From Propionibacteriaceae bacterium (GTDB lineage Bacteria > Actinomycetota > Actinomycetes > Propionibacteriales > Propionibacteriaceae), in NCBI GenBank assembly GCA_017882685.1, contig JADGPA010000045.1, positions 1-47,168 of the forward strand: a stretch of DNA of 47,168 nt, in the 5' to 3' direction. Every line of letters starts with the position of its first letter. The first letter of the stretch is position 1. The notes under the pieces are model-generated. The model saw only the letters and a program-made list of their open reading frames with translations, searched no databases and was not told where the DNA came from. Of the stretch, positions 4,301 through 46,937 are shown one piece after another. The translations under genes were made by a program, and so were the position numbers.

Positions 4301-4445
4301 GACCTGGGTGCACCAGCGGGTGGCGCTGGCCGCCGGCGTGGTGGCCGAGGGCAGCTACCCGGCGACGCCGGGGCCGCACTGCCGCACGTGCCCCTTCGCC
4401 AACAGCTGTCCGGCGTCCGGCCGGGGCGGGCACGTGCTGCGATGA
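1344..4445 (+). CDS. adnA: AdnA, subunit of the AdnAB helicase-nuclease
   Basis: AdnAB is the actinobacterial heterodimer that resects double-strand breaks for RecA-dependent repair. The protein (1033 aa from GTG 1344) has an SF1 motor with Walker A GGPGTGKT at about 26-33, then a UvrD/Rep-like C-lobe (QVLTAHRARGREWDLVVVAG), then a RecB-like nuclease with VVDFKTS. A lone Cys (TCPRRYFLAR) before the nuclease and three C-terminal Cys (HCRTCPFANSCP) match the Fe-S staple of AddB/AdnA proteins. Motif II reads IDDYTELDPAQ rather than DExQD, and motif III is VADPDSISSTFRGA without the usual Gln, so this motor is probably weak or dead, as described for mycobacterial AdnA. The start is uncertain: ATG 1314 is an in-frame alternative. 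It overlaps adnB by 4 bp (ATGA), so co-translation is likely. Confidence 0.93.
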   Translation: MTSLPSLAPDQAAVLASWDVPLLVLGGPGTGKTTLLAHAAVARSTSGDPAPLVLAASRTAASALRNTISAGLGDGSWQPVVTTAHALCRTIWQRFAGRPDLRLLAAPEQEYRVRELLAVSGATHWPAELRPALGTRGFAAQVRAAIARARQLGLEPEDLAAFGQEADRPEWAALGGFFAEYLDVLDAEGVLDYAELVHRVRLLLTEPAIAGVLGAEIGAVLIDDYTELDPAQIALLATLAGSASVLAVADPDSISSTFRGAHPRAVADFGRFFGRPDAAVRRAELTTGHRSGPVIADALAGVRARLPRPAGAGQPGIVPVVDGPGEVAVFTCSGEADQADTIAAEIRRARLTTGIHYGDMAVLLRSGRRQLGPIIRSLAAAGIPVEVAGDEIPLAQAPSVRPLLLALAVTAAGRVEPDEAVRLLTSPLGGFDALGLRRLAREWRVGRATTPAGLPEQLAAAINAPAWLDVADPSPVTSRLRRLLDVLAAAARRVRAGDPVDVVAWTLWQGTEWPRQLASESLAGGALGSRADADLDALCALFESAAEADRRGGVGGVRAFLAELAGQQIPADRERESRLRGRGVQVLTAHRARGREWDLVVVAGVQEGVWPVGRRVSTVLEAAALTADGLTGRTDHRDLLAAERRLLHLACSRAKLRLVVTAAAGTEGEADSPSRFLAELGVPLSAPDRHRQPLTLAAMAAELRRHATAPGAAPEVRAAAAVELARLADATDDSGKHLVPAADPSTWWGVRELTSRPEPLGSGRSVRLSPSQVSGILTCPRRYFLAREARGEGEPGLAAALGSLIHLLVQQAVTEGWGLAELRERLNQVWHRLRFEAAWLSATERIEVELGLARFLAWREAAAADLVGVEVPFNLELAVDDLTVVLDGKVDWLERTPGGLRVVDFKTSRTAPTRAAIAGMEQLGIYQLAVASGGFAGLEPDTGTAGAAAVYLRLAGRPEDLPKEFDQASLTSTPYLYADPEEERYPTWVHQRVALAAGVVAEGSYPATPGPHCRTCPFANSCPASGRGGHVLR

Positions 4446-7400
4446 GGTTCGCCGAACCGGCACAGCTCAGCCGTGCACTGGACATCGACTTCTCCGACCA
4501 GCAAATCGCCGCCATCACCGCGCCGCTCGAACCGGCGGTGATCATCGCCGGCGCCGGCTCGGGCAAGACCACGGTGATGGCAGCAAGGGTGGTGTGGCTG
4601 GTCGGGTCCGGACAGGTTCTGCCGGAACAGGTGCTGGGACTCACGTTCACGCGCAAGGCGGCCGGTGAACTCGGCAGCCGCGTACGGCAGGCGCTGCATC
4701 GGGCCGGGGTGCTGTCCACCGACCAGGAGGCCGGTGAAGAGCTGATCCTCACTTACGACGCCTTCGCGGGACGCCTGGTGTCCGAGCACGGGCTGCGGCT
4801 AGGCATCGAGGGCGACTCCCGGCTGATCACCGGCGCTGCCCGGTTCCGCCTCGCCGCGCGGGTCGTGGCCGACACCCCGGGCCTGCGGTACCTCTCCCGC
4901 CTGCGGCCGGCGGCGGTGACGCAACGGCTCCTGGAGTTGTCCGGCGAGCTCCGCTCCCACCTCGTCGACCCGCTGGCGCTCGCCGACCAGGCGGAGACCT
5001 TCGACGCCGCGCTGAGCGCCGCACCCCGCAACCCGCGCGGGCAGGTCTACCAGGCCCTGCAGACCGCCCGCGCTGCCGCGTCCGAGCGACTGGAGCTCGC
5101 CACCCTCGTGGTGCGCTACGAGGAGTTGAAGGCCGACCTCGGCTACGTCGAGTTCGCCGACCAGATGGCTGCGGCCGCCCGGCTGGCGACGGAGGTGCCC
5201 GCCGTCCCCGCGGCGCTGCGTTCGGAGTTCGCTGTGGTGCTCCTGGATGAGTATCAGGACACCTCGGCAGCGCAGGCCACGCTGCTGCGCGGGCTGTTCT
5301 CGGGGCCTGACCCGGCGTCGGGACGCGGGCACCCGGTCACGGCGGTCGGAGACCCGTGCCAGGCCATCTACGGCTGGCGGGGGGCCGCGGCCAGCAACAT
5401 CCTCGATTTCGCCCGTCACTTCCCGACCATGGACGGGGAGCCCGCCACGGGCTACGCACTCACGGTCAACCGGCGCAGCGGGCAGCGGGTGCTCGACGCA
5501 GCCAACGACCTGGCCGGGACCGTGCGCGGCGAGCCGGCGCTGGTGGCCCACGGGCTCGACCTCGACCTGGTGGCGCCGCCCGGCACCCCGCCGGGACGGG
5601 TGGAGGCGGCCGGCTACGCCACGTGGCCCCACGAAGTGGCCTCCATCGCCGATCGGACGGCTGAACTGCACGCCACCGGGGCGGTCACCGCATGGTCCGA
5701 CATTGCCGTCCTTGCGCGGCGCAACAGCCAGGTCGCCGACGTGTACGCCGAGCTCATGTCCCGGGACATCCCGGCAGAGATCGTCGGGCTGGGCGGACTG
5801 CTCGAGCTGCCGGCCATCGCAGACGTGGTCGCGACCCTCACCCTGCTGGACGATGCGACGGCAAACCCGTCAGTGCTGCGGCTGCTGACCTCACCCCGCT
5901 GGGCGATCGGCATCCCCGACCTGGCCATGCTGGGGCGGCGGGCACGGGAACTGTCGGCTGCCCGGCGTCCCGAGGGCGACGGCGGCACGCAGAGCGACCT
6001 GGAAGCCGTGCTCTCCGGCTCGGACCCCGCGTCTGTGCCCAGCCTGCTCGAGGCCGTCGCCGATCCCGGCCCGCTGTCCTACTCCGGTGATGCGCGGCGT
6101 CGATTCTCGGCGTTCGCGGGCGAGCTGGGCTTGTTGCGGCGTCACGCGGGTGATGCGGTGACCGAGCTGGTGCAGCGGGTGGTGTCCGTATTGGGTCTTG
6201 CCGTGGAGCTTGAGGCGGTCGGCCCTGGGGGCAGCGCGCCGCTGGCCACGTTCGTGCAGGCGGTGGCCGACTACACCGACATCGACGCTGACGCGTCCCT
6301 TGCCGGTCTGCTGGCCTACCTCGAGGCCGAACGGGAGTACGGCACCGGCCTGGAGCAGGCAGTGGTGTCGGCGGCGGACTCGGTGAAGGTGCTCACCGTC
6401 CACAAGGCCAAGGGGCTGGAGTGGGACGTGGTGTTCGTGCCCGGCCTTGCCGCCGACGTGTTCCCGACTGATCGGGTCACCGGCAACTGGCTGCGCAACG
6501 CGTCCTCGCTGCCGTATCCCTTGCGGGGGGACGCGTCGGCCCTGCCGCAACTGGGACGGGTGGACAACACCCAGATGACGGCGTTCGCGTCGGCGCTCAC
6601 TGCGCAGCAGCGGCTCAGCGAGGACCGGCTGGCCTATGTCGCGGTGACGCGGGCCCGGCAGTTGCTCCTGGTGAGCACCCACACCTGGGGCCCTGGGTTG
6701 GCGAAGCCGCGCGACCCGTCGGACTATTTCGTCACGGTCGTCGCGCATGCGCAACGAGTCACCGATGCGGTGGCCGTGCCGGACACGAACCCGCTGCTGG
6801 GCGAGGCAGCGACCACTTCCTGGCCTGCCGTGGGCGACACGGTGGCGTGGACGGTTCGCCGTGAGGCCGCGGCGTTCGTGCGAGACGCCCGCGCTGCTGC
6901 CCGCGACGGCGACTACCCCGAGGTTGCCGGGCTCAGCCTAGATCAGACGGAGCTCGTCGAGCATTGGCGTGAACTCTCTGCAGGGCTGATCGCTGCCGAA
7001 CTGGAGACGGTGCGCGAGCGCAACGCGGGACGGCTGCCCGACTACCTTTCTGTGACCGGCCTGGGCCGCCTGGCACGGGATCCTTCGGGGTATGCGGCCG
7101 AGCTGCGACGACCGATGCCGCGGCTGGTCAGCGAGGCGCAGCGGTGGGGCATCGGGTTCCACCAGTGGCTTGAAGACCGGTTCCGCGGGCAGTCCCCGTT
7201 GCTGGACGGCGACGACGGTGAGGTGACCGGCGTCGACTTCGAGCAGTTGCGCGCGGGCTTCGAGGCTGGGCCGTACGCGACCGCGGTGCCGCTGGCGGTG
7301 GAGACCCCGTTCACGCTCGTGCTGGGCGGACGCCTGGTGCGTGGGCGGATCGATGCGGTGTTCACGGCTGTGGATGGACGGGCTCAGGTGGTCGACTGGA

Positions 7401-44793: not shown

Positions 44794-44870
44794 ACGCCCA
44801 CTTCTGTCGCGAGCAATGCGTGCAGAGCTGGCCGTCTCCGGCCCTTGACAGGGGCGCCGCCGCGCGGCAG

Positions 44871-44903
44871 CGTCCCGCGTCCCGCGTCCCGCGTCCCGCG
44901 TCC
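44871..44903. repeat. 7-bp tandem repeat (CGTCCCG)n
   Basis: About 4.7 copies of CGTCCCG in noncoding DNA after the HsmA-like gene. It marks the left side of the accessory-looking region and may vary between strains by slippage. Confidence 0.85.
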
Positions 44904-44911
44904 AGGCATGG

Positions 44912-45043
44912 TCATGTTCGGCCCGCCGCAAGCGCGGCCTCATCGTGCACGGCGGCCTTGAGTTCCGCCTGCGTCTCCGGGTCTAGCCCATCCCAGAACT
45001 GCACCAGCTTCTCCCTTGGGATGACCTCTTGCGGTTGCGTCAT
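44912..45043 (-). CDS. 43-aa hypothetical protein
   Basis: From ATG 45043 the minus strand encodes MTQPQEVIPREKLVQFWDGL, then DPETQAELKAAVHDEAALAAG. It is acidic and should be two amphipathic helices, with amino-acid usage like a real protein rather than an antisense frame. CAGACT ends 7 nt before the ATG, the spacing of a leaderless promoter; there is no ribosome site. The frame continues upstream to 45235, but that part is low-complexity. I do not recognise a family. It may be a small regulator or a remnant. Confidence 0.5.
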   Translation of the reverse strand: MTQPQEVIPREKLVQFWDGLDPETQAELKAAVHDEAALAAGRT

Positions 45044-45107
45044 GGGTCGCAGTCTGACCTCTGTGCGCTTGCCGCCGCAGGAGATAGCAAGCGAACGTGG
45101 CAGCGAC

Positions 45108-45246
45108 CCCGGGCCGAAGCCCGGGACCTTGCTGGGAACGCCACTGCAGATGGCGCCCCCAGCACGCGACCATGTTGCCGGCACCCCCCCAAAGACGGCA
45201 CAGTCGCGCTCCCGGGCATAGCAAAGCCTTACCAAGGAGAAGGCAA
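45108..45246 (-). ncRNA. Candidate small RNA A1 (minus strand, about 139 nt)
   Basis: On the minus strand TAGCGT (45252-45257) and an upstream TGGTCA 18 nt away form a promoter-like pair; the start would fall near 45246. The RNA would begin UUGCCUUCUCC, the exact complement of a strong ribosome-binding site, then a stretch with GGGGGGG, a hairpin (GCTGGG/CCCAGC plus CGCCA/TGGCG with an AA/CC internal loop, 45131-45163), and end in CCCGGGC-UUCG-GCCCGGG (45108-45125). The same layout occurs in A2 at 45551-45710. No coding potential is convincing. Orientation is inferred from the UUCG tetraloop and the matching promoters. Confidence 0.45.
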
Positions 45247-45332
45247 GGGCGACGCTACGTGCACGACGCGACCGCTGACCAGACCCCGTTCAGGGGACAT
45301 CGGAACGAATGCCCGGGTGCTACCATTCGTAG

Positions 45333-45415
45333 CTGGTGAACGCCAACCCCCGGTGTTCCCGCCCGCCCCCCGTTGGGCAGAGACCCCCCGGAAGCCCCCC
45401 GCGACCCGGGGGTCT
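45333..45415 (+). ncRNA. Candidate small RNA B1 (plus strand, about 83 nt)
   Basis: An extended -10 box TGC-TACCAT (box at 45321-45326) should start a transcript near 45333. It would run to the hairpin AGACCCCCCGG...CCGGGGGTCT (45381-45415, one bulged C). The matching copy B2 at 45863-45946 has nearly the same length. A GTG lies at leaderless distance (45336), so a translated product is not excluded, but the two copies do not share protein sequence. The promoter is divergent from that of A1, 64 bp away. Confidence 0.35.
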
Positions 45416-45442
45416 GGCATGTCATCGACCTTGCAACAGCGG

Positions 45443-45462
45443 CCCCGAGCCGAGGCCCGGGG
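45443..45462 (-). terminator. UUCG-type hairpin, third copy (CUCG loop)
   Basis: On the minus strand CCCCGGGC-CUCG-GCUCGGGG, the same stem as the hairpins at 45108, 45551 and 46583 including the G-U pair. It stands alone in the spacer between the two duplicated units, with no identified gene upstream of it. The adjacent run AAAAAA on the plus strand (45466-45471) lies before it in minus-strand reading. Confidence 0.5.
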
Positions 45463-45550
45463 TGGAAAAAAGCCCTCAGATAGAAATCGCGGCGGGCGTG
45501 GTCCTGGGTGGCGCTCCACTCAGAAGAACGAGGCCGCTGACACAAGCGCG

Positions 45551-45710
45551 CGGCCCCGAGCCGAAGCCCGGGGCCGCTGGGCCTTGCTGGGAGCGTCACC
45601 AGCGGGTGGCGCTCAACCAGCACGCGATTGCGCCTACGGCACCCCCCCCGAAAGCCCAGGCACAGTTCGCACTCCCGAGCAGGACAAGGCCCCCGCCAGG
45701 GAGAAGGCAA
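45551..45710 (-). ncRNA. Candidate small RNA A2 (minus strand, about 160 nt)
   Basis: Promoter-like TTGTCG, 18 nt, TAGCCT (-10 at 45716-45721) on the minus strand places the start near 45710, so the RNA begins UUGCCUUCUCC exactly as A1 does. The body is closed by GGCCTTG (45580-45586) pairing with CAAGGCC (45685-45691). Inside is a long hairpin at 45586-45621: GCTGG/CCAGC, GAGCG/CGCTC, a G-U pair and CACC/GGTG, with a two-base bulge. The RNA ends in an 11-bp UUCG hairpin (45551-45576). In that hairpin one pair is G-U on the minus strand but A-C on the plus strand, which supports this orientation. Confidence 0.48.
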
Positions 45711-45862
45711 ATGTGAGGCTAGATGTACGAACCGCCGGCCGACAAGACCCCATTCAGGGGACGCCCGCAAACATCGTGTGAAGCCTCTATGTTGCTTGAG
45801 GAACGGCGAGCCACTCTCCCAGCCTCCGCGATCTAGGTAGGCAAGAGTGCTAGCGTCGCGAT

Positions 45863-45946
45863 CGGTGGACGACCTACCCCCTCGGACGTTCGACCTCCCT
45901 GCAAGGGACAGACCCCCGGATGAGGCCCCCCCGGCCCCGGGGGTCT
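45863..45946 (+). ncRNA. Candidate small RNA B2 (plus strand, about 84 nt)
   Basis: Extended -10 TGC-TAGCGT (box at 45851-45856) gives a start near 45863; the perfect 10-bp hairpin AGACCCCCGG/CCGGGGGTCT (45910-45919 with 45937-45946) would end it. Length matches B1. A 68-codon frame starts at GTG 45865, at leaderless distance, with MDDLPPRTFDLPARDRPPDE; it runs past the hairpin to 46071. I favour an RNA because the hairpin and promoter are what the two copies share. Confidence 0.35.
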
Positions 45947-46048
45947 GGCATGCAGGCGCGTCCATAACCCACCCGGCCAGCGAGTTGAGGCGCTACCCGT
46001 TCCGTGAGATGACTGGGCCGCACCCGTCCAAGCTGGGCGTGTCACGGC

Positions 46049-46091
46049 TAAGTGTTGTGGTGGGGTGCTAGTGTGAACACCACAACACTTA
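46049..46091. promoter_or_regulatory. Perfect 14-bp inverted repeat bracketing a promoter (operator)
   Basis: Left arm TAAGTGTTGTGGTG (46049-46062) and right arm CACCACAACACTTA (46078-46091) are exact reverse complements, 15 nt apart. The spacer holds TGC-TAGTGT, an extended -10 box (46069-46074). The arms thus flank the -10, and the right arm covers the expected start site near 46081. This suits a repressor binding both arms. It precedes the regulator-like gene at 46108. Confidence 0.75.
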
Positions 46092-46107
46092 AGGAAGGGT
46101 GGATACC

Positions 46108-46569
46108 GTGTCCCGTGGCCCTGGACGCTGGCAGCGTGCAATCCTCACCGCCGTGGCCGATGGCCCCGTGGCCCTCACCCACCCCGATTACACACCTGCC
46201 GAACAGAACGCCATCCGACGCGCTGCCTACGTCCTGGAGAAAGCCGGGCGGATACAACTCTCATCCGAACGGGTGGACGGCACCGCGCCCCGCCTGGTGG
46301 CTCGTGCTGCGGGCTCCGCCGCGGTCCCTGGCCACGTCACCATCGGGTTGGATGGCAAGAAGTATCGCCGGCCCCCGTTGCCGCCGCTCGACATTCACGC
46401 ACTCCTGCCCGACATGGCGCCCGAGGAAATCGCCGATCTCATCGCGATGGCCGACCTACCACAAGCCGCCTTTGAGCAGGCGCTTCGCAAGGCCCGCCTC
46501 GACGGCGACCTCAGCCGGGAGAACGTCCTGAGACGCGCAGGTGTCGAACCCAAAAACCTTTCCGGCTAG
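46108..46569 (+). CDS. Winged-helix-like hypothetical protein of the accessory region
   Basis: A 153-aa protein from GTG 46108 (GGAAGGG 8 nt upstream; GTG 46099 is an alternative). The N-terminal part, RWQRAILTAVADGPVALTHP, then NAIRRAAYVLEKAGRIQLSS, looks like a winged helix-turn-helix. The C-terminal part, IADLIAMADLPQAAFEQALR and ARLDGDLSRENVLRRAG, resembles helical segments of plasmid and phage proteins with the GDLSR-x-NV pattern. I do not recognise a named family. The promoter sits inside a perfect inverted repeat, so autorepression is a reasonable guess. It faces an XRE-type gene across a shared terminator region. Confidence 0.75.
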   Translation: MSRGPGRWQRAILTAVADGPVALTHPDYTPAEQNAIRRAAYVLEKAGRIQLSSERVDGTAPRLVARAAGSAAVPGHVTIGLDGKKYRRPPLPPLDIHALLPDMAPEEIADLIAMADLPQAAFEQALRKARLDGDLSRENVLRRAGVEPKNLSG

Positions 46570-46658: not shown

Positions 46659-46937
46659 CTAGAGGGTGTCGGCCTCACCCACACCCTCTATGCCGGCGTC
46701 TCGCACGGCAATGCCGTAGGCATCCTCGAGGAGGTCGGCAGCCTCACAACCCGAGAGAACAGCGAACTCGAACAGGTCGCACATGTAGATGGGGGACCGT
46801 CCGGTGAGCTTGCGCCAGAGGGTGCTGCGGGGCATGTTGATCTGCTCGGAAGCTTGAGCCTGCGAGACGCCCGCGGCGCGCAGGGCGCGCTTGCATGCGA
46901 GACCCCATTGAACTCGGTCGGGATGGGTGGTGGTCAT
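46659..46937 (-). CDS. XRE-like helix-turn-helix regulator
   Basis: A 92-aa protein starting MTTTHPDRVQWGLACKRALR at ATG 46937, with GGAGGG 7 nt upstream. RAAGVSQAQASEQINMPRST followed by LWRKLTGRSPIYMCDLFEFA is a helix-turn-helix of the XRE/Cro type: SQAQASEQI is the first helix of the pair, MPRSTLWRKLTG the recognition helix. The C-terminus (GCEAADLLEDAYGIAVRDAG) is acidic. Such short single-domain regulators are typical of phages and integrative elements. A TGC-TAGGCC box lies at 46964-46969 on the minus strand, similar to the other boxes of this region but without the final T. Confidence 0.85.
   Translation of the reverse strand: MTTTHPDRVQWGLACKRALRAAGVSQAQASEQINMPRSTLWRKLTGRSPIYMCDLFEFAVLSGCEAADLLEDAYGIAVRDAGIEGVGEADTL

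Follow-up and report, generated by a model that had tools for sequence, protein, structure and literature searches.

The window analysed here, the whole 47,168-nt stretch of contig JADGPA010000045.1, carries at 45105-45951 two diverged copies of one noncoding unit, recognised by sequence check and repeat search, which are probably neighbouring copies of a divergently arranged pair of small RNAs (A and B) beside a tRNA gene. The host is an uncultured Propionicimonas-like bacterium with an incomplete genome (2.99 Mb in 215 contigs, 88.9% complete). A third copy of the unit (A27/B27) was found in contig JAOATP010000035.1 (26326 nt) of Propionicimonas sp. (genome G027), a member of the same genus, with 74.5-75% identity to the window unit over 340-353 nt (BLAST, E about 1e-45 to 6e-45), and at about 1e-45 in another genome the duplicated unit is not a product of chance. 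The explanation that we favour, tentatively and with somewhat less than even confidence, is that B is a 6C/B11-like regulator acting through C-loops, that the divergent A is its G-run antagonist and that the two share a control region. The G-run in A, the C-runs in the loops of B, the third copy and the likeness to 6C/B11 go beyond what a first-pass annotation of this DNA had described. The features are as follows.

45105-45246, minus strand: putative RNA A1 (sequence and folding), closing stem, three arms and a 3' UUCG hairpin (45108-45125)
45184-45190, minus strand: 7-G run in the apical part of A1 arm 2
45252-45281, minus strand: promoter-like pair of A1, TGGTCA (45276-45281), 18 nt, TAGCGT (45252-45257)
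45282-45298: conserved palindrome CCCC-N5-GGGG in the interval that separates the divergent promoters of copy 1, possible binding site of a regulator
45318-45326, plus strand: extended -10-like box of B1, TGC-TACCAT
45333-45420, plus strand: putative RNA B1, three hairpins with C-run loops (45347-45351, 45366-45371, 45395-45400)
45437-45462: hairpin of the UUCG kind with a changed loop, between copy 1 and copy 2
45550-45710, minus strand: putative RNA A2, layout as in A1, UUCG hairpin at 45550-45577
45642-45649, minus strand: 8-G run in the apical part of A2 arm 2
45716-45745, minus strand: promoter-like pair of A2, TTGTCG (45740-45745), 18 nt, TAGCCT (45716-45721)
45746-45761: CCCC-N5-GGGG palindrome of copy 2
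45848-45856, plus strand: extended -10-like box of B2, TGC-TAGCGT
45863-45951, plus strand: putative RNA B2, C-runs kept in the first and last hairpins (5 and 7)

Copies of the unit and their genomic setting

The first-pass annotation had placed two diverged copies 446 bp apart; the copies are borne out by sequence, repeats and the third copy, while the single spacing is not, the distance between corresponding parts varying from 447 to 531 nt owing to some 66 additional nt that copy 2 carries between A2 and B2. A mechanical search returned direct repeats of 67 nt at 78% identity (offset 464) and of 62 nt at 71% (offset 531). With the region as a BLAST query, 10 of 146 genomes matched at E up to 0.001, the own genome included; among the nine others the match was long only in G027 and short elsewhere, consisting of the UUCG hairpin or part of it in seven genomes and of a 39-nt piece in G079. 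A and B occur together in all three known copies. The 39-nt piece (45807-45845, in the extra nucleotides of copy 2) is 85% identical to two places in G079 that we take, from their motifs, to be part of a phage terminase gene, and is a possible prophage scrap inside the copy 2 control region.

Both genomes have an Lsr2-like gene, a peptidase gene, the unit and a tRNA-Met-derived sequence in common, the unit lying on the same side of the first two genes, towards the tRNA-Met or tRNA-Met-like end; the peptidase gene and the unit are separated in the window by a DUF2254 gene and one of the HsmA family, and the contig ends 1.2 kb to the right of it. Between the two genomes, identity is 74.5% for the unit, 79% for the peptidase gene and 88% for the Lsr2-like gene, and it drops to 19-38% to the left and 28-48% to the right outside the unit. 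The name Lsr2 is our presumption (NCBIfam gave no match for this gene), as is that of an M23-type peptidase (NCBIfam gave peptidoglycan hydrolase matches below the cut-off only). ARAGORN found no whole tRNA in JAOATP010000035.1; positions 993-1082 of that contig resemble the 3' end of tRNA-Met together with its downstream hairpin, and this tRNA-Met-like end matches at 79% a 94-nt piece of the window extending into tRNA-Met. An adjoining frame looks on inspection like what we take to be an integrase, and the 993-1082 stretch is perhaps the attachment site of an integrated element. Searched in distant mode, neither the phage nor the plasmid collection gave a match for the region.

Other elements surround the unit in the window. 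A short tandem repeat of GCGTCCC units lies at 44870-44900, and a perfect 14-nt inverted repeat (TAAGTGTTGTGGTG/CACCACAACACTTA; 46049-46091), operator-like in appearance, is found just 5' of the frame 46099-46569. On the minus strand, 46659-46937 encodes a small helix-turn-helix protein next to tRNA-Met that matches phage transcriptional repressors in PHROG (5.9e-11). A riboswitch for the 43-codon frame 44912-45043 was considered and rejected, since the left flank is not conserved.

Two long overlapping frames (45029-45781 on the plus and 45255-45965 on the minus strand) stay open for 236-250 codons, as they would if they encoded proteins, a reading that we regard as highly improbable: no Pfam match was obtained, GC-rich DNA gives such frames freely, and the copies differ by gaps of 1 and 2 nt that break the frame. 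The earlier suggestion that selection acts on RNA rather than protein is supported by these gaps and also by the good folding of five of the six RNAs relative to shuffles and the predominance of G-U among the helix variants of A on the minus strand.

Putative promoters and shared control region

The elements proposed at first pass upstream of A, namely an 18-nt spacer, TAGCGT or TAGCCT, a further 5 nt and then the identical 11-mer TTGCCTTCTCC, could be read directly in both copies; the description of the -35 box as T-TGTC-like suits TTGTCG of A2 and fits TGGTCA of A1 poorly. The TGC-TANNNT boxes of the plus strand were likewise recovered in both copies. The proposed starts of A and B are 87 nt apart in copy 1 and 153 nt apart in copy 2. 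The palindrome adjoins the -35 box of A, and the block formed by the two is 82-91% identical between copies; identity is 39-61% in the spacer between the -10 and -35 boxes of A and 22-67% in the alignment of the B -10 box, a low value to which the insertion in copy 2 contributes.

A consensus scan for sigma-70-type promoters across the unit returned none, and the UUCG and AGACCCCC hairpins were not scored as intrinsic terminators by a consensus scan because no T-run stands 3' of them. The only terminator-like site that was scored (minus strand, 45248-45227) falls at the 5' end of A1 and is at chance level (shuffle mean 0.8). The putative promoters and terminators thus named rest on position and conservation.

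RNA A

The A transcripts would start on the minus strand at 45246 (A1) and 45710 (A2), each at the 11-mer, and GGGGGGGTGC is also invariant in A. The same fold is predicted for all three copies on this strand, a closing stem with three arms, and the core is 76-80% identical between copies. The UUCG hairpins noted earlier are indeed complete in A1 and A2, and the hairpin is incomplete in the G027 copy. A run of G in the apical region of arm 2 is kept in all three copies (7, 8 and 7 G in A1, A2 and A27, respectively). Runs of at least seven G or C number four in the window and three of them fall within the 856-nt stretch of the unit, a count reached by 2 of 200 first-order random stretches of equal length. 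Over the window as a whole, such runs are rarer than expected (4, where 200 first-order random sequences averaged 16.6).

Compared with 200 shuffles, the folding energies gave z -3.69 for A1 (no shuffle as good), -1.24 for A2 (21 as good) and -2.41 for A27 (3 as good), A2 being the one exception among the six A and B RNAs, the other five of which were equalled by at most 5 of the 200 shuffles. The opposite strands scored -3.70, -2.59 and -2.62 (0, 2 and 2 shuffles as good) and, because they fold as well relative to shuffles, this comparison alone does not tell the strand of A. Among the variable pairs in the consensus fold of the minus strand, 19 exchange Watson-Crick for G-U, 6 exchange it for A-C and 3 occur as two Watson-Crick types; the corresponding counts in the fold of the opposite strand are 8, 13 and 3. 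Each consensus fold was derived on its own strand and is biased in its own favour, yet a gain is seen for the minus strand only; the G-U variants favour the minus strand for A. Double-sided covariation is weak, the three pairs being reached by 141 of 500 shuffles and thus not above them.

How open the G-run would be differs between predictions. In the RNAalifold structure, three G of the arm 2 apex are engaged by three U/C, and the centroids show a large open loop there in A1 and A2, not in A27. Along the G-run the predicted unpaired probability ranges from 0.04 to 1.0, and its 3' part is predicted to be mostly paired in A2 and A27.

A covariance model (R1) in whose building A1 and A2 were used matches A1 at 45124-45246 with 106.5 bits and A2 at 45579-45710 with 117.6 bits; it also matches the plus strand of the two regions weakly (20 and 18.9 bits), which we ascribe to a self-complementary arm. 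No Rfam family matched A at the gathering score, and over 44900-46100 Rfam gave four weak matches (E 0.95-4.8), all far below the cut-off; over the whole window it found only tRNA at cut-off. If transcribed as proposed, A would by itself constitute a new structured RNA.

RNA B and its likeness to 6C/B11

B1 comprises three predicted hairpins, the first GAACGCC-AACCCCC-GGUGUUC, the middle one GCCC-GCCCCCCGUU-GGGC and the last formed by AGACCCCCCGG, a loop with six C and GGGGGUCU. The hairpin loops of B1 and B27 hold 5-6 C (6, 6 and 5 in B27), and the middle hairpin of B2 has lost its C-run. The last hairpins (AGACCCCC/GGGGGTCT; 45381-45415 in B1 and 45910-45946 in B2) end 83 and 84 nt after the proposed starts, in line with the distance of about 83 nt given at first pass, and that of B1 may be a terminator. 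Very few of 200 shuffles fold as well as any of the three B RNAs (z -3.15, -2.51 and -2.23 for B1, B2 and B27, with 0, 2 and 5 shuffles as good). In the first hairpin, the loop ACCCCC is kept while the stems differ between copies, and five variable pairs of the B consensus, counted with no shuffle comparison, keep Watson-Crick pairing through a double change. The C-runs of the first and last loops are predicted to be mostly unpaired, and the loop C of the middle hairpin have unpaired probabilities of 0.41-1.0 in B1 and 0.24-0.68 in B27. A covariance model (R2) built from B1 and B27, leaving out B2, finds B2 with 40 bits (E 9e-5 over 87 kb; E 0.0031 in a genome-wide search). The opposite strand of B has a lower consensus energy and a G-U bias (9 variable G-U pairs versus 1 A-C), so folding does not settle the strand; we infer the plus strand from the extended -10-like boxes and the likeness to 6C/B11.

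In the published descriptions, as far as covered here, 6C takes its name from a pair of stem-loops carrying some six C apiece (Corynebacterium glutamicum and Streptomyces); in C. glutamicum it measures about 100 nt on a Northern blot and has eight C. RNAs of the 6C/B11 type are reported from many actinobacteria, with 6C near Ms1, one gene between them, in mycobacteria and Streptomyces coelicolor. B11 is described as acting by pairing of its C-loops with G-tracts; in Mycobacterium abscessus it represses eccB4, which carries six G in its 5' UTR, and one C-loop, no matter which, suffices. B shares with this family (RF01066), as so described, a succession of hairpins whose loops contain 5-7 C and a length of about 85-100 nt; at least two hairpins in every copy of B have loops of roughly six C, B2 keeping two of the three. 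It differs in the short stem of its middle hairpin, in having no U-run after the last hairpin where B11 is described with one, and in being accompanied by a divergent G-run RNA with two copies in tandem. The reported neighbourhood near Ms1 was not recognised around B, whose neighbours before the contig end are the Lsr2-like, peptidase, DUF2254, HsmA-family and tRNA-Met genes.

That B is a true, diverged 6C with A as a lineage-specific neighbour is unlikely in our estimation, though compatible with the explanation that we favour. The same C-loop hairpin chain and similar length speak for it, and so does the outcome that the Rfam 6C model exceeded its cut-off in none of 146 genomes, the own included (30 candidates scored per genome at most), which implies that 6C has diverged or been missed in this order. 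Against it, the 6C model, run on 1201 nt with E up to 5, did not match B, R2 gave no match at E up to 1 to the six below-cut-off 6C candidates of the order (L135-L140, in 6 of the 146 genomes, E 8e-4 to 0.009), and the neighbourhood reported for 6C was not recognised among the genes seen beside B. In the own genome the 6C model matched one place, elsewhere, with 23.9 bits against a cut-off of 47. In the six weak candidates a long stem is capped by a loop containing C-runs, and L136 and L140 have a further C-run hairpin just upstream of the model start. The canonical 6C place, sought through a gene at L136 that we take to be of the HAD type, was recovered in 0 of 30 genomes at a strict E of 1e-30, which shows little. 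Because the Rfam 6C model fails on B, we call B 6C-like only. The view taken at first pass, that no described family has this layout, therefore holds for A and for the pair in the searches made, but for B it gives way to the 6C/B11 layout seen in the accounts covered.

Distribution

In the covariance check suggested with the first-pass annotation, Rfam gave no convincing match for A or B, and among the genomes searched the model from the copies found A convincingly in the own genome and in G027. With R1, A was detected in 2 of 146 genomes of relatives, own included, and in 2 of 198 genomes of the family (the own and G027); with R2, B was detected in 2 of 197 genomes of the family, the same two. 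These three large searches used strict filters and scored at most 17-23 candidates per genome, out of hundreds in most genomes listed, for which reason absence elsewhere is weak evidence. Within the genus, R1 at E up to 1 reported 3 of 30 genomes, own counted, the third being G020 (E 0.81, 23.6 bits), a match with poor pairing that we take as chance. A pattern for the third arm of A occurred in 54 stretches of genome contigs, of which R1 (E up to 1) confirmed only that in JAOATP010000035.1 (L053), and in two stretches of viral contigs, neither confirmed by R1; a second A pattern had no occurrence in the viral contigs. With filters off, the best R1 score in six loci of relatives was 15 bits. 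Two R2 matches near the peptidase of G006 (14.9 bits) and G007 (20.5 bits), also with filters off, were taken as chance; these stretches are alike in the two genomes, are devoid of C-run loops and look on inspection like part of a gene.

The last hairpin of B is of a type (AGACCCCC-N8-24-GGGGGTYT) that occurs twice in the own genome and once in G027, always within these units, and once each in 7 of the 28 other genomes of the genus, being absent from the remaining 21. Six of these seven other places were inspected and taken as terminators; open frames of at least 80 codons overlap them. In viral contigs the B-hairpin pattern occurred once, in L141, where R2 scored 29.8 bits (E 0.0043), mainly over the end hairpin, and no A was present. 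The hairpin there (4405-4447, AGACCCCCGG/CCGGGGGTCTGGC) is terminator-like and follows what on inspection is a capsid-like gene. L141 was rejected as a B, C-runs being absent upstream of the hairpin, and taken as a shared type of terminator, as was an R2 match in L142 (21.2 bits, E 0.11).

Such recurrences could mean that selection has acted on terminators and promoters only, the region being what remains, as strong hairpins and spacer, of a mobile island that decayed next to tRNA-Met. The UUCG hairpin or part of it in seven other genomes, the AGACCCCC hairpins in seven other genomes of the genus and after a viral capsid-like gene, the phage-repressor-like gene nearby, and the tRNA-Met-like end and presumed integrase frame flanking the G027 copy would all fit. 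We nevertheless judge this quite unlikely: conservation extends beyond the end hairpins to the core of A (76-80%), which is about as conserved as the flanking gene (79%), the four-way fold of A has G-U-biased variants, and the C-run loops of B persist while its stems change.

Predicted pairing between A and B and a proposed mechanism

After the costs of opening, the predicted A-B pairing energies run from -10.4 to -11.4 kcal/mol in the three own pairs and, when all nine combinations are taken, from -10.1 to -13.1 kcal/mol, the best pairing in each being that of the G-run with a C-run. Shuffled versions of A paired as well as the real A in 0 of 60 cases for each of the three own pairs, so it is the G-run that makes the pairing possible. 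Shuffled versions of B paired with A as well or better in 54, 17 and 31 of 60 cases; since many do as well, specificity between A and B beyond the C-richness of B is not supported, and an interaction is something we infer.

These numbers leave room for A and B to be real small RNAs with no functional tie that happen to have a divergent promoter region in common, B regulating mRNAs through its C-loops and A having some other job in which its G-run serves structure or another partner. We put this somewhat below even, only a little behind the explanation that we favour. A pairs no better with the real B than with many C-rich shuffles, the 3' part of its G-run is predicted to be mostly paired in A2 and A27, and five of the six RNAs fold well on their own; yet A and B stand together in the three known copies, the family searches, with their strict filters, found neither alone, and the G-run and the C-runs are both conserved.

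The explanation that we favour, with B as regulator and A as antagonist, starts from the observed anatomy, third copy and similar neighbourhood, and takes in the G-U bias of A, the conservation of both kinds of run and the co-occurrence of A and B. Two small RNAs would be transcribed divergently from a shared control region. B, read from the plus strand, would present C-runs in hairpin loops and pair with G-tracts of target mRNAs, typically near ribosome binding sites, whose translation would thereby be repressed. A (about 140 nt) would bind with its G-run the C-loops of B, and of other C-loop RNAs, as a decoy or antagonist, and one regulator at the palindrome between the promoters could set the ratio of A to B.

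The role proposed for A draws on the co-occurrence, the conserved runs and a precedent in Campylobacter jejuni, where CJnc190, a small RNA with C/U loops, is described, in the portion of the report covered, as having an RNA antagonist, CJnc180, from the same locus. That antagonist is described as cis-antisense, whereas the transcripts proposed for A and B run away from each other with no overlap, and the comparison is an analogy by description, not one of homology. A would also resemble the sponge RNAs of base-pairing small RNAs in sequestering a small RNA through a complementary loop; it differs in having a four-way fold of its own, and its interaction with B is a predicted one. A literature search by title and start of abstract, with few subscription journals represented, gave no G-loop antagonist of a 6C-type RNA among the matches listed.

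More broadly, and with lower expectation still, the unit might be a self-contained actinobacterial module, a 6C-like C-loop regulator with a purpose-built divergent G-run antagonist, duplicated so that the copies set dosage or specialise; we think this somewhat unlikely. No antagonist dedicated to small RNAs of the C-loop class is known to us from this phylum. The known range of the unit is narrow (two genomes). How low-complexity C-loop seeds are restrained is not addressed in the 6C/B11 literature covered here, and a divergent G-run RNA beside a C-loop RNA would, if true, be a simple and testable answer.
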